A program made the translations under genes and the position numbers. Below the pieces are notes generated by a model, which ran no database searches, was not told the DNA's origin, and was given only the letters and a program-made list of their open reading frames with translations. Positions 4,549-15,848 of a stretch of DNA of 64,000 nucleotides are shown piece after piece (position 1 is the first letter of the stretch; each line of letters opens with the position of its first letter). The stretch lies in the NCBI GenBank assembly GCA_900175165.2, contig FWWN02000451.1, forward strand, positions 186,001 through 250,000. Reading direction: 5' to 3'. This stretch comes from Rhizomucor pusillus (Eukaryota > Mucoromycota > Mucoromycetes > Mucorales > Lichtheimiaceae).

Positions 4549-6431
4549 TCATGTGTTTTGTACAATAACAACGTCGTTGAGAAAGTTTTCATCTGAAAAG
4601 TTCCCTTGGTCACCGAGTACAAAGTCGTCGTCGTCATCTGCCGTATTTGCGCTGTTCCTGGAAATGACGAGATCTCTCTCGTTCGCCAAATGCAACAAGC
4701 AAATGAAGCAGAACGACACAGAGATATCCTTCATTGCCTTTTCGGAGTACATGGATCGCAGGTCTTGGATGATATCTGAAAATCTTTTCTCGCCATGCAC
4801 GGTGTCCCCGGCGTAATTTTCTCCTTCCTATATTCAAAATGTTCAGCTAATCCACTGCCAGTAAAGAAAATGAGCACCATATCGTCATACCGGTGGTTTC
4901 GTTAGTGCCTTCCAAAGGTTATCCTTTAACTTTTTGACATCCACTCTCTTTGCTTTCCTTGCATAATTGACATAGAGGGGTTTGGTCTTTTTGAGACGAT
5001 GACTGGTAATTAGAGCGTCACCGTATTGTGAATTTTCAGGATCGTCGTAAGTATCATAAAAGGTATCTTGGTAGAAAGAATTGTCATCGTATGCTGTAAG
5101 GATAGCTACAGTGCCACAGTTAATATTCCTTAATCTTTCTAAATCCAGGTTAAGTCCGTACTTTGATCGGCGGCAGCGGCGTCTGCAGTTTCCACGCCAT
5201 TGTCGTCCTGGGTCTGTTGAGTGTCCTGGTTCGCCCAGTATTGTGCATCAGGTTCAAAGTCAAAGCCAGGGTCGAAACCTGTGTCGTAGTCACGCTGGAG
5301 ATTGGTGGTATCATAGTCTAACAATGTAGTTTTAGGTGCTCGAGTACGTAATCGATACACTGCTCAGTTAGGTTGTACCTTTAGGATCTTCGTGTACCGA
5401 ATCGACTGTTGGTTTCTGAGGACGTTTTCGATGAATCTGATTTAATCGGTTCTAATAAGTAAATATTGCATGAGCGCAAATTACCCAACGGAATATTACC
5501 AGGAAATCAGGCTTCAAGAAAAATCTAAGGAGTTGCTTTGACGAAAAGTGCATATCATCGGGGAGAAGATGGAGGTTGGGTTTTGTAGTAGACTCTTTAT
5601 TAGCAGACATCGTGATTTTGACACGTTTGTCTGTTGCAAAGAGTTCATTTTCATCCACCACTTCACCATCCAAAAAGTCGATCTGGAAAGCTGGTCGTTT
5701 GTTTCTTTTCGGTCGATCTTCGTTTCCTTCTTCGTTGGGCTGCGTTGTTGCTGATTTTTCTAGGGGAGAATTATTATCAGACAAGGTTATTATTTGCTAG
5801 AAGGCAGCATTGGATCATACCTTTAGAAACAGGTCGTCGCAGCTTCCAATGTTCAGGACCAGCCCAGTTCTTTGTAAAAGCAGAATCAAAGTAGCTAAAC
5901 AGATCGTCGCCTTTTCCGTTCGCCAGTGCCGTCAAATAATCTTCTTCATGCAACGGTAATTGATCATCCATGTCTCCGGTTTCCTTATCGGCGTCTTCTT
6001 CCTGAAGAATGGGCGCATTTTCAATAGCATCTATCTCAGGTCCATCGTTATCAAAATCAAAATCGCCAAAGTCTCCAGGATCAAAGTCATCATTGCCATC
6101 GGCGTAACCGTTCGGTGCATCTACGTTCATGTTGTTATCTACTGAAGGTTGTATGTCATTTTCAGAATGATCCAAGTTCGGCAGAGCTTCATCGCTTTCA
6201 GAAAAGAAGTTGTATCCATGAAGCGTAGGGCAGATTTGGAGACCAGAAAATACGTCAAATGCGGGAAGTTTAGCCTTTAAACGTGAAATTTCGACGAGAC
6301 TAGAGCTTGCTAGTACCGTATTGTTTTTGTTTTCGGTCGATTCCTTTTCTTGCTCGTTTGATTCGACACCTTCCATCGGATCCTGGAGCCCTGTCTGATT
6401 ATCAGCGTTGGATTCTTCTGTTTGCTTCTGC

Positions 6432-9601: not shown

Positions 9602-10852
9602 TTCAACGACAGTTCGATCAATAACCCAACGACACGCTTTGACTGCTTCCAGAGACCCATAGCAACAAATCTGGGGCAGTTTTGATGAACTTTGCAAAAG
9701 ACTCTTCTATCTTCGAGCTTTATCAAGATTAATAAACATAACGGAAGTCGATATCTAGTAATACGCAAACTTATCAATCGCTGTCCAATAACCTTGTTCA
9801 TGTGCGAACAAAAATCCATCATTTTCAACGTTGTGTAACAATGGAGTGTCCCTGCCGATCAGAGTGTCGCAACCAGACTGCACATTGACGCATTTTTACA
9901 TCTGCATTTATCTCTCTTGCAATCTTGCCATATAGGAAAACTCCACAAGTGTCTAGTAAAGGTCCTTTAATTGTTTATATTCCCCTGGGACATTTGAGTA
10001 TTCTATGATCTCAGAGAAGATAACAGTCGAATGTAGTAGCAGTATCCGACACACCCACGCATCTTTCTACCTCTTTGTGATTCTAAAGGAGGCTATTACT
10101 CTTTAGAACGCATTTTTACCTTACTAGGCAATCAACGGTTTGTAGCAGTCGGATAACCATCGGTCCGACAAGACCGAGATTTTGTTTCAGTTGCTAGATA
10201 GCACTTTCCAGATCTTTTGTCAATCATCCGTTGATATCATTACCACGTATATATCCAACGACGCGTGTTATCTATCAGATGAGATTTACCAGCAACGAAG
10301 CCGAAAAAGCATTAACTAAGAATAAAAAATACGTTAGTGCTCATCTGAAACATGTGGGTGCAAATTTTTCCGCAACATTCCAGGCACGACATGTAGCATG
10401 TCAAGCATACATTGGTGAGCTCGTGAAAATACTTAAGCCAAATTTGACGTTACGCAAACGTAGAAGCCTGCATCGCAAAGCAAAAAATCGTACCATTTGA
10501 ATACAACATATGGAACATCTGTATAGTAGGGTTTCAGATGTTCGACAAAAATTTTTTGGATAGTTCAAGCCGTGTAGGAGATTTGTTTTCAAAGCAGGCT
10601 ATTCAGACTATTAACTTTGGAAAAATTAGCCTTAAACAGGAAAATTCATAAGGGATCAAGGAAAGCTTCGTTCTAACCAGTACCACAAAGGATATCTGAT
10701 TCTATTTTATTGCCTCTGTTCCAGCTGGTCTCATCCAATGTAAAGGGGGTTTACGCTGACTGAATTGACATGCAGCGGTCTTTCCCGACTCGGATTTATT
10801 GTTTCGTGATCTCCCGGGCGGCCCTTACCCTCTGTTGTTTTCTTACCAATCT
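9602..10852. other. Intergenic, possible further gene debris; no supported gene
   Basis: About 1.25 kb between the decayed gene and the RhoGEF start. An 89-codon frame at 10231-10500 (+) contains a basic helical stretch (ALTKNKKYVSAHLKHVGANF) but begins at TTG, has no homologue I recognise and may be debris of the neighbouring relic. The rest includes the RhoGEF promoter. Confidence 0.4.
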
Positions 10853-12901
10853 ATGTTACCAAAACTCAAACGTGAAACTGGTAGTTTCCAGGATATGTTG
10901 CACTTGCGGATACCTACCAAGAAATCTCTATCAGATCAAGAGGACAAAGACGACTCTTCGTCGCCACGTTCACCTAGCGATGGAGCAACCGTCACACAGC
11001 ATGTACAAAAGAACACCGGCAATGTAAAGAAAAAACGACATTCAGGCCTCCATTATTTTTTCCACTCTCACAGCCATCAGCATCACAAAGAATCCAAATT
11101 TTTCATCGAGGATATGGATAGCCAAGAGAAACGCAAAAGTCTGACTCTTTCCGATCCTTTGCACAACCGTAAAGTAGCTTCGCCGACGTCTTCTTTGACT
11201 TCGCTGCAAAGCAAGCGTCCCAAATGGCATCTTAAGCTGCATCCACCGAGCGCTCCGCATATATCCCATCGGCGCAGAAAAAGCATCTCTGGAATCGTAG
11301 AACCTCCAGAACCGCCACCACAGCTTGTTCCTTATACCCCAGTGCACGCTGCTTCAGCGATCCAAAAGTTGGCACCGCCGGTGCAGCGCATCTCACGACG
11401 AGCAGCGTCAGAAGATGGAACCGCAGCCGTTGGACTCGTGGATGGTCCGGATCTAAAGGTCGAAAATGCAACCACAGATGTGTTACGTTCTGTTTCTGAG
11501 CAAAATGCTTTGCTGAACGCCTTGCCATCTGAGCGGATATTACGGCGCAGATCAAGTTGTCCAGCTTTGGAAAGACCCATAGAACATTTGAAAAAGCACA
11601 CCCCAAAATGCCAACGTGTTTTGAGCATAGCCGACGTACAGCATCGTAGCCAGATCTCTGGCGACACGCTGTTGAAGCGGACATCCCCTAGCGGTAGCCC
11701 TGGGACCTCATCGCCTACTTCGCCGCAACACCGGCAAACCCACACGCGCCCCCAACCATCCAAGTCTCTTCACGAACGTGCATCCAAACTGTATCCATTG
11801 CCACATCCACGTCGATGCAATAGCACAGGCCGAGTCTCGAATGTCACTGTCAGCCGGCAATCATCCGAAGACAGCGGTTCAAACGGGTCGACCAAAACAT
11901 CCCCTGCGACCAAGATCCCGAACGTGATTGATCCCGTCACAGGCCGAGAGGTCATTCGATTTTCTGATATACAACCCCGTTCTGTACGGCTACGACGCCG
12001 GGTCAGCGAGAAAAAGGAAGCCAAGGCTTTGAACAAGTGGCGAGCAACTGTGCAAGCCGCTTTGGACGAACATGCAGCCTTGCTAGAGAAGCAGCAATTA
12101 ATGCCGCCCAAGACAACCATTCCGCCTGAGAAAAAGCATAAATATGCGCTCACTCGCCGATTCATTCTGCGCGAGTTTTACACCACCGAAGTGACGTTTT
12201 GGAATCAATTGTACTACTCCAAAGTGGCAAGTATAATAATATTACATCTACGCCATCTGAAGTGCCCATTGCTGACAAAGTTACATAGATGTTTCACGAT
12301 GCGCTCACTGCCGCGGTGTCGCGACGTTCAGCCTATGTCAAAAAGGCAGATGCCGACCTGTTTGCCAACTTGTTCGATCTGCTTCAATTCTCCGCCAAGT
12401 TTCTCAACAGATTGCAATGCATCCAGTTTGAGCGCGTCGTTTTGGATAAACCCTTTCGTCTGACGCCTAGCGAAGACTACGCCTTGCAGTGTCCATCGGA
12501 TCTTTGCATCGGCAAGACTATGTGCGATCTAGCCGAGGACATGGTTGTCTTTTTGCGATGCGCATTGGATTACAAAGCCAATATGCGCCAGGTGGTTCAA
12601 TCTCGAAATAACAAGGGATACATGCGTTACAAGGAGAAACTGTATGAGCGTAAAGAAACAAGGCAGTTCACGATCGAGGATTACATGATCATCCCCATAC
12701 AGCGCATTGCCCGCTACAATTTATTACTTACTGGTAGGTGCTTACTGAAGCATGCTGCTCCATGGATAATAAAACTGACTCGCGTGATTTCCAGATCTTC
12801 TCAAACATACCCCGTCAAGCGATCCAGATTACAACAACATTTGTACTGCGCAAAAAATTGTTGATGGTTTGGCATCTGCGATGAACTATGCTCAAAAGTA
12901 A
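10853..12901 (+). CDS. RhoGEF (Dbl-homology domain) protein
   Basis: Three exons (10853-12223, 12289-12733, 12795-12901) give 640 residues. The N-terminal 425 residues are low-complexity and Ser/Pro/Arg-rich with many SP/TP sites. A DH domain fills the rest: YALTRRFILREFYTTEVTFW (CR1-like) at about 430-450, FANLFDLLQFSAKFLNRL, CDLAEDMVVFLRCALDY, and the diagnostic helix MIIPIQRIARYNLLLTDLL near 600. DH domains catalyse GDP/GTP exchange on Rho-family GTPases, so a role in actin, septum or wall polarity is likely. The chain stops about 30 residues after that helix with no PH domain, unlike most Dbl proteins. Start: the longer frame opens with TTG at 10799, so the first ATG was used. The first donor (AAA|GTGGCA) is weak but is the only one that keeps phase. 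Confidence 0.85.
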
Positions 12902-13205: not shown

Positions 13206-15848
13206 TTACATGAGGATGCATTGGCAGTAGACGCCGCCGCTAGATGGTGCTGGTACCACCCAGTCCGGCGGGAGATTTTGATTAATGGGGGTGGAGGGAG
13301 ATGGTGCTGGACTTCCGTAGTTGGTCATGGCGATGGTCGGCATTTGCGGTAATCCGGTGAAGTTCTTGTCTGGTGCTGTTCCGTTCGGTGCGGCGTTGTC
13401 CGTCGGTACTATAGCATGCGCAAGGTGCTCGTTTTCTTTTGGCTTTTCTTCGATTATTTGCCATGAATCGTTCTGTTTCCGACATTCCCACTGCTTCAAA
13501 TTCTGCTGCAGTGATTCGACCGCAAACGTCATTTCTGTTTAGAGTGCGTGCGTATGGGCGTGAGATTTTGCTTTCATGCGACACGTGGCATAGAGTTATT
13601 GTTTACTTTACCATGCATTACATCCGCGACAGCCTCAAATAAAACAGATGCAACAAACTTGATGAATCCAATTTGCATATCTTCCAGATTCAACTTTTCG
13701 CGGTCATTCATGGGCTGCACCGGCATGCCTAGCTCTCTTTCAATATCTCCTTGAAAGATGAACTCTTGTGCAAGCAGCTCGGCCCATTTGACCGCTCGCC
13801 TGAACGGTCGCGTCTATGCAAAATAAAGTTTAGCGCATAAACTAGACGGAAAAAATAATTTTCTCCCTTTTCACACACACGTACCACGTTGCTAATGTCT
13901 GCACATTTTATGAGCGCACTGCATATCAGCAGTCGCTCCTGCTCTCGGGCCTGCCCGTCTACATTGCTCAACCCTGATTTTCGCGTAGCTTGCTCTTTGA
14001 TTTTAGCTACGTAGTCACCATGCAGCGACATGTCCGTCGCTAAAATACTCGCTACGATTGTTTTCCTAAACTCTAAATATTTTTGGCATCTTTGAGTGAC
14101 CCGGATCGTATTAATTGAACCTTTTTTTTCTCATGCTACCTTGAAACGTCTGCGAGCTGCATCCTCCGAGAGCTTGGTCGATTCCGTGCTTCTTTAATAG
14201 CTGAAAAAGGGTCATTGAATGGAAACTTTCTAGAACAGATCGATCGTTGTAAAGGATCGCCAGCGGCGTTGCGGAATTAATCTGCGTAGAAACGGGCAAT
14301 TAGCGTGGAGTTTCGTTTTCAGATGCATGGATTATCAACTTTACCAGAAACAAGTTATTGACGCCAGGATGTGCAGCATCGTGACCTAATGCCGCAACCA
14401 AAAATCCAAAAATGTCTATTGGGCGGAGGAGACCTTGTGGTCCTGTCACGTTAGCGTGGTATGGCAGCACGCCCAATTTACGCAGAAAGTAATAGGAGCA
14501 TTGTAAAACGTCGACCGCGTGGGCGAAGTTGTGATAAGGGTTGTCATTTCGGTACGATCCGGCGAGGTCGAGGATAACATTGTACAGTTGCTCTAGTCAT
14601 TCATTCGGCAAAGTTGGATTGAGTGCCGTGCTCATTTCATCTCGATTGCATGCATTTATATTTACCTTGCGATATAGAGTTTTCGGGCATCTGAGTGCAG
14701 GATAACGCCTGATCAAAAATCAAGTATGCACAGTGAATTTGCTCCTCTTTGTCAAAATCATAAGGACAGAAATCCCACGCCGAGACTCTTTGTAAAAGGT
14801 AGTCGACACGTTGGCTATAATCCCAGTTTCCATCAGCTAACCTGACAATAAACAGCGCGGGCACACTGGTCAATTTGCTATTCACAAACCTGGAAAGTTG
14901 AGTCATGGGAAGGGGCGGCCTTGTGGTTGGTGCGTATATATCCAAGATCGCCTTAGCCAATCTAAAAAAAGTACGCGGAAGAACACGCGGGTTCTATGGT
15001 CAGCCAGCGATGTCTCGAAGCTAATAATACGCAGTGCTACACATACGCAGTGTCATTGGCGGCAATTTCCTTGATACGATGATGTAAGCCGCTGCAGTGG
15101 TTAACGACGGGAGTCGTGGGTGTGATTGGTGTGTCGCTCGTACTCGTGGTCGCAGGTGATGCAATATTCTTGTCGGCCTGATTTCGGTGGACAGCTTTCT
15201 GCAGACAATGAAAACGAGGGGTGTGTGTTACTGTCTTGCTGATAAGGATGATGTCAAAACGTGTCGCCTACCAGGAACAAGGTCTTTATCACATCTAAGC
15301 GCAGGGGTTTCAGCAGGTAATCTGCTGCACCTGCATTGATGCATTTGAGCATGAAATCAAAGTCTTCGCTTGACGAGCATACTGTGAATTATTGGGGGTT
15401 GGAAGGAATAAGGGCAAGGGAGCCATTCAGTCAGGATTGCAACAGTCAGATAAAGTAAAGCTTCTTTTCCTTTTTTCCATTACCAGTCATAACCACCCAG
15501 TCGCGTGCTATTTCCTCGATGCATTCTATCGCATGCCGATGGTCGTGGAATGTATCGAGGTCGATCAAGCATACCGTCAACGAATCCTTGATATCTTGCA
15601 GGGCATCAAAGGAATTTGATTGTATAGAAACTGCATGAAATTGTCAGTTTTCAACGATCACACATATACGCATGCACTCTCCTATCCAAAAAACAAGCGC
15701 TCTGACCTCGTCCAAACACAGACTGCAGCAGCGGTAAGTAGTCAGGCTCGGCAAAGTCACTGTTGCTCTCGATTTCGTCGTCATTGATTCGATACGGTTG
15801 AGATTCCTGCTGGTAGAGCACAACAACCGAGTAGCGTGAAGGGTCCAT
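13206..15848 (-). CDS. Receiver-domain class I cyclic-nucleotide phosphodiesterase with CaaX box (RegA-like)
   Basis: Ten exons (15848-15707, 15630-15484, 15381-15272, 15198-15047, 14961-14666, 14592-14345, 14281-14140, 14072-13885, 13813-13612, 13534-13206) encode 651 residues. Residues 1-140 form a response-regulator-type receiver: beta-3 TVCLIDLD with Asp71, TVCSSSED with Thr96, and AGAADYLLKPL with Lys121; the usual N-terminal acidic pair is absent (SVVVLYQQE). Residues 240-600 are a class I PDE catalytic domain: DEEQ-type entry KEEQIHCAYLIFDQAL, metal motifs YHNFAHAVDVLQ (His303/His307) and ALGHDAAHPGVNN (His353/Asp354/His357), FRKTIVASILATDMSLH, and ALIKCADISNV. The C-terminus ends Cys-Ile-Leu-Met, a CaaX prenylation signal, with a second Cys two residues upstream. 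Domain order matches Dictyostelium RegA, a phosphorelay-controlled cAMP phosphodiesterase. cAMP specificity and phosphorelay control are inference. Confidence 0.92.

Follow-up and report, generated by a model that had tools for sequence, protein, structure and literature searches.

RegA of Dictyostelium, Acanthamoeba and Naegleria carries a response-regulator domain followed by a class I cAMP phosphodiesterase (PDE) (PMC11988041, PMC3906536), and is described as activated by phosphate passed from RdeA to Asp212 (PMC11988041). Metazoan PDE8, also a cAMP PDE, has a REC domain of uncertain regulatory significance in its N-terminal region (PMC12346295), and C-terminal prenylation anchors PDE6, the class I PDE of vertebrate photoreceptors, to the membrane (PMC13095499). 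In fungi, pde2 of Mucor lusitanicus has already been studied (PMC9226013), and in Mucor the change from yeast to hyphal growth and back is linked to cAMP and protein kinase A (PMC9031258), so that the site and manner of cAMP breakdown matter. Here we analyzed a stretch of 64,000 nucleotides of Rhizomucor pusillus (contig FWWN02000451.1, positions 186,001 to 250,000; the window), in which a gene at 13206..15848 is predicted to encode a receiver, a class I PDE domain and a C-terminal CaaX box. The best reading, to which we assign a probability of about 0.5, is a membrane-anchored enzyme of the Pde2 type with an atypical regulatory receiver. The features are as follows.

13206..15848, minus strand: receiver-PDE-CaaX gene, preferred model (11 exons, 626 amino acids)
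15848-15707, 15630-15484, 15381-15272, 15198-15047, 14961-14890 and 14814-14666, minus strand: first six exons of this model
14592-14345, 14281-14140, 14072-13885, 13813-13612 and 13534-13206, minus strand: last five exons
14815..14889, minus strand: in-frame GT-AG intron of 75 nt, absent from the earlier ten-exon model
15272..15848, minus strand: receiver domain, about residues 6-133, in exons 1-3 (from Pfam Response_reg, matches to solved regulators and models of relatives)
15810..15815, minus strand: Tyr12-Gln13, in place of the canonical acidic metal-binding pair (by alignment)
15560..15562, minus strand: Asp71, candidate phosphoacceptor at the end of β3 (by alignment)
15374..15376, minus strand: Ser99, Ser/Thr switch position at the end of β4 (by alignment)
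15308..15310, minus strand: Lys121, preceding a proline at the end of β5 (by alignment)
13512..14536, minus strand: class I PDE catalytic domain including introns (PDEase_I; coordinates converted by hand)
13209..13226, minus strand: C-terminal CQCILM, with the CaaX box CILM at residues 623-626 and a second cysteine two residues upstream

The original prediction, made from the DNA letters alone, had placed a receiver ahead of a complete class I PDE. Pfam, the N-termini of relatives and AlphaFold models of relatives bear this out. In the Pfam comparison, for which a 635-residue version of the protein was used, Response_reg scored 19.2 bits (E=0.0014) against the whole protein and 22.3 bits (E=1.5e-4) against residues 1-154. 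These scores are significant, so that the outcome named as refuting the original prediction, a receiver with no significant profile score, did not arise; with the cut-off at 30.2 bits, the window's receiver alone falls under the Pfam threshold. Residues 1-154 also matched solved response regulators, with a best E-value of 7.6e-5 and 4.9e-4 for ARR1. N-terminal fragments were sought in 43 related proteins; two gave none, and Response_reg matched all 26 fragments chosen from the 41 that were cut. A profile built from the relatives' N-termini matched the ARR1 receiver among solved structures at 2.7e-10, and the receiver fold is visible in the AlphaFold models of two relatives, backed by fold comparison. 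Note that some searches did not list the domain: a genome-wide Response_reg scan gave 20 matches, none of them in any of the three receiver-PDE genes of this genome, and a receiver-only protein search with one relative (P0095) returned only that protein. The N-terminal domain qualifies as a receiver by its profile match and by the (βα)5 fold modelled in relatives.

The catalytic domain is complete. PDEase_I matched residues 286-534 of the 635-residue version over positions 1-237 of its 238 (E=1e-76), and the HD-type metal motifs are present, with YHNFAHAVD at residue 277 of the 626-residue model, GHDAAHPG at 327, ATDM at 399 and KCADISN at 443. When a profile of the family was compared with solved PDEs, Candida albicans Pde2 (PDB 6cpt/6cpu) scored 288 bits (6cpt), the next structure 219 and PDE8A 214. 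Pde2 is thus the closest solved structure by sequence, and its match extends into the linker ahead of the catalytic domain. From this kinship the enzyme is predicted to be specific for cAMP.

Receiver-PDE fusions are widespread among early-diverging fungi. Two protein searches, from which the best 120 of 1503 and the best 120 of 476 significant matches were taken, gave 172 proteins, or 173 rows with the window; best-of-list searches of this kind cannot show absence from Dikarya or chytrids. Every named organism among the matches listed is an early-diverging fungus, from Mucorales, Umbelopsis, Endogonales, Glomeromycotina, Mortierellomycotina, Calcarisporiella or Basidiobolus. All four receiver test columns are covered in 109 of the 173 rows, the other 64 being omitted for gaps there; the models from Mortierellomycotina mostly lack the receiver start (1/26 rows covers all four columns). 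Clade labels follow the listed organism names, with unnamed proteins counted with Mucorales/Umbelopsis, as was P0129, the single Mortierellomycotina-type row with a full receiver (placed by the tree and by us). The RegA-like layout is genuine and nothing out of the ordinary for this lineage; two members, from Lichtheimia and Choanephora, are already named regA in their source records. In a FastTree phylogeny of the catalytic columns of the 173 sequences, rooted by choice on Basidiobolus and weakly supported at several deep nodes, the window fell in a clade of seven (support 0.999) with proteins from Dichotomocladium, Lichtheimia, Phascolomyces, Fennellomyces, Zychaea and Circinella, which points to an origin in Mucorales. 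One row, P0158 from Diversispora eburnea, is a 1087-residue model listed with PF00928 in addition to its PDE domain, perhaps two gene models fused. No title or abstract describing a fungal receiver-PDE or a CaaX-tailed PDE was found among the top-ranked literature matches, subscription journals and supplements lying outside this scope. The main text of a survey of fungal receivers does not contain the word phosphodiesterase; its Table S4, on receivers with enzymatic domains, was not covered (PMC8510515).

We next consider the receiver active site, for which all residue counts rest on MAFFT alignments. The original prediction named Asp71, Thr96 and Lys121. Asp71 and Lys121 are conserved: the first column holds D in 129, E in 7 and Q in 1 of 137 ungapped rows, and the second K in 149 of 165. 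Thr96, on the other hand, is ruled out as the switch residue, having been found only in the window among 84 rows, in a mostly I/V column that corresponds to a hydrophobic β4 position; Ser99 aligns at the switch position instead, and is serine in 145 of 147 ungapped rows. At the position three residues before the lysine (Tyr118 here), 120 of 165 ungapped rows have tyrosine. The full set of Asp, Ser/Thr and Lys is retained in 97 of the 109 full-receiver rows, and at least one is lost in the other 12.

The metal site is different. In bacterial receivers, the metal held by an acidic pair is described as essential to phosphotransfer, and Pro at D+4 together with Gly at D+8 is typical of receivers (PMC8510515). 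At the two positions after β1, 69 of the 109 rows have no acid, 39 have one and 1 has two. Of the 17 rows from Glomeromycotina, Jimgerdemannia, Calcarisporiella and Basidiobolus, 16 carry a single acid; of the other 92, 68 carry none. The window itself has Tyr12-Gln13 there, and Phe75 and Arg79 in place of the D+4 proline and D+8 glycine. Acids D23-E25 of the β1/α1 loop might compensate for the missing pair; this loop is poorly modelled in the AlphaFold structure of a relative. By alignment, then, the receiver is atypical, keeping Asp, Ser and Lys without the canonical acidic pair. The sole row of the 109 with both acids, at residues 12-13 (VDDC), is P0104 from Fennellomyces. Its Asp, Ser and Lys are intact, which makes it the strongest candidate in the family for phosphorylation.

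The original prediction missed the conserved C-terminal CaaX box. A CaaX-type box ends 84 of the 120 proteins of the first search, and C-x-C-x-x-[QM] ends 76 of them; across both searches, a stricter CaaX pattern ends 99 of the 172 proteins; it occurs in 9 of the 14 Glomeromycotina rows, in the form CCxxQ, and in none of the 26 Mortierellomycotina-type rows. Some members without a box may be truncated gene models. In the AlphaFold model of P0002, the stretch preceding the tail (residues 535-597) has pLDDT values below 50 and is modelled as disordered, so that conservation of the very end carries more weight. C-a-a-M and C-a-a-Q ends suit farnesylation, and the conserved box implies that the predicted enzyme would be farnesylated. 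Within the window's clade of seven (the window, P0001-P0005 and P0007), every protein has a C-a-a-M end; among the other CaaX members of the first search, the last residue is Q in most.

The exon model had to be revised as well. The earlier ten-exon model splices exactly to 651 residues. However, the distance from the DIY/EIY motif to the WDF motif is 55 residues in that model, compared with 28-32 in all 12 matching relatives (13 were examined) and 30 in the 626-residue model. Since this spacing fits the additional 75-nt intron, the 11-exon model is preferred; homologues thus favour it over the ten-exon model, which it supersedes, together with an 11-exon model containing a 48-nt intron. Its ten introns of 63-102 nt are all GT-AG and the reading frame is unbroken. 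The predicted start of the protein matches many homologues that begin with MDPS or similar. Overall, the receiver-PDE fusion first proposed holds, with its switch residue and exon structure corrected.

The same genome contains three receiver-PDE genes: the one in the window, one on C343 (best match P0017) and one on C336 (best match P0114). In the two paralogues, whose frames were read by eye, there are no acids at the two β1 positions, and Asp, Ser and Lys are kept. All three proteins end in CQC followed by aaX, the box being CILM in the window and CIIQ and CCIQ in the others. Two more class I PDE genes, on C250 (L033) and C45 (L034), showed no receiver in the open frames examined. The solved structure nearest to one C250 exon is PDE9, and the C45 gene looks alike by eye. 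The PDE9-like C250 gene would be unexpected if it does hydrolyze cGMP; the C45 gene lies between apparent genes for a purine nucleoside phosphorylase and an RGS-domain protein (by eye; near 866-1670 and 5026-5500). Two histidine phosphotransfer (HPt) genes were found, both with the motif HFLKGSSAAIG, which we take to be a mark of Ypd1-like character. Histidine kinase profiles gave 10 HisKA and 19 HATPase_c matches, although some of the latter may not be kinases. With these HPt genes and kinase-profile matches, the parts of a phosphorelay exist in this genome.

How might such an enzyme work? Our preferred reading is a class I cAMP PDE of the fungal Pde2 line that has retained a recognizable N-terminal receiver. 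The last cysteine would be prenylated (farnesylated) and the upstream cysteine perhaps palmitoylated. This lipid tail would bring the enzyme close to Ras and adenylyl cyclase, and there it could drain a local pool of cAMP. The receiver, for its part, may tune PDE activity through partner binding or through a weak, unusual phosphorylation, rather than by standard Mg2+-dependent phosphotransfer.

The main rival is a working relay of the RegA type, in which phosphate from histidine kinases would reach Asp71 by way of Ypd1 and its arrival would alter cAMP hydrolysis, as in Dictyostelium. The domain order is that of RegA (PMC11988041, PMC3906536), the Asp71, Ser99 and Lys121 positions are conserved with mostly tyrosine at K-3, and the genome supplies the two HPt genes and the kinase-profile matches. 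However, the acidic pair is absent at Tyr12-Gln13, the D+4/D+8 turn is missing, and 12 of 109 rows have lost at least one of the three remaining active-site residues. The missing metal-binding acids make direct two-component coupling less likely, and we consider such a relay less probable than the preferred reading. The view behind the original prediction, that two-component sensing would be coupled directly to cAMP, may hold by analogy with RegA; the RegA-like layout and the phosphorelay parts agree with it.

Alternatively, the receiver could be a structural remnant resting against the catalytic domain, as may also hold for the N-terminal part of Candida Pde2; the enzyme would then be constitutively active and regulated solely through its expression and location. 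The loss of the metal-site acids would suit this, as would a Foldseek comparison of the full-length model of a relative. The top two matches were Candida Pde2 entries, aligned over 569 and 564 columns at a root-mean-square deviation (rmsd) of 18.3 Å, whereas nearly all other listed matches cover 331-355 columns. The N-terminal domains of the model and of Candida Pde2 were thus probably paired, though this rmsd means either that domain placement differs or that the N-terminal match is loose. That 97 of 109 rows have selectively kept the other active-site residues also speaks against a mere leftover, which we regard as improbable. That the fusion is a gene-model artefact joining exons of neighbouring genes can practically be set aside: exons 1-4 do hold the receiver and linker in a model drawn from DNA alone, but gene models from many fungi contain this fusion too, and P0026 (704 residues, 2480 nt), P0038 (676 residues, 2141 nt) and P0044 (684 residues, longest contig 2724 nt) come from contigs that barely exceed the coding sequence and hold receiver, PDE and CaaX box in one open frame, suggesting spliced transcripts.

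The Foldseek result also bears on the contrast drawn by the original prediction with a receiver-free Pde2 in Dikarya. This contrast may be false, as the match to Candida Pde2 seems to include its N-terminal domain, which may be a decayed receiver; we offer this only as a suggestion and a lead. Other comparisons gave no such signal. In a superposition of the full model, Candida Pde2 was not among the best 50 matches listed, and these were other PDEs, whose alignments reach at most from about residue 143 to residue 526 of the model and say nothing about the Pde2 N-terminal domain. The receiver profile matched nothing in an approximate yeast Pde2 sequence, and 6cpt was not among the best 60 of 182 matches to the receiver-family profile. 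We tentatively propose, while thinking it somewhat likelier to be wrong than right, that all fungal Pde2 goes back to a cAMP PDE of the RegA type under phosphorelay control, with intermediates kept in Mucoromycota-type fungi and a decayed, unrecognized receiver in Dikarya Pde2. The metal-site acids would have been lost stepwise, one being left in nearly all rows from Glomeromycotina, Endogonales, Calcarisporiella and Basidiobolus and usually none in Mucorales, and decay of the receiver would have been combined with Ras-style lipid anchoring. If true, this would tie the histidine-kinase and cAMP pathways together in fungal evolution and give the N-terminal domain of fungal Pde2 a concrete origin. 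Early-diverging fungi would likewise be predicted to destroy cAMP at the membrane by means of a lipidated enzyme.

Next to the receiver-PDE gene lies a convergent gene (10769-12864, plus strand) whose translation, read by eye, resembles a Rho guanine-nucleotide exchange factor.

In conclusion, the layout was already known from RegA; the fungal family, with its atypical receiver and conserved, predicted lipid tag, is a variation on it and only partly new. The domain order of RegA is present here in one protein. The fungal protein has no acidic pair and bears a CaaX tail, features that could set it apart from RegA as published. PDE8 has a PAS domain besides its REC domain, whereas Pfam (maximum E-value 10, filters on) listed none for the window's protein; this and the weaker catalytic score (214 versus 288 bits) rule out PDE8 as its closest relative. 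PDE6 offers a parallel for the predicted prenylation, but it is a cGMP enzyme of different architecture. Among solved structures, Candida Pde2 is nearest by sequence in the catalytic domain, and differs in two respects: no receiver is named for it in the match listings, while that of the fungal family is recognizable by profile, and its solved chain, aligned up to its last residue but one, has no visible CaaX box.
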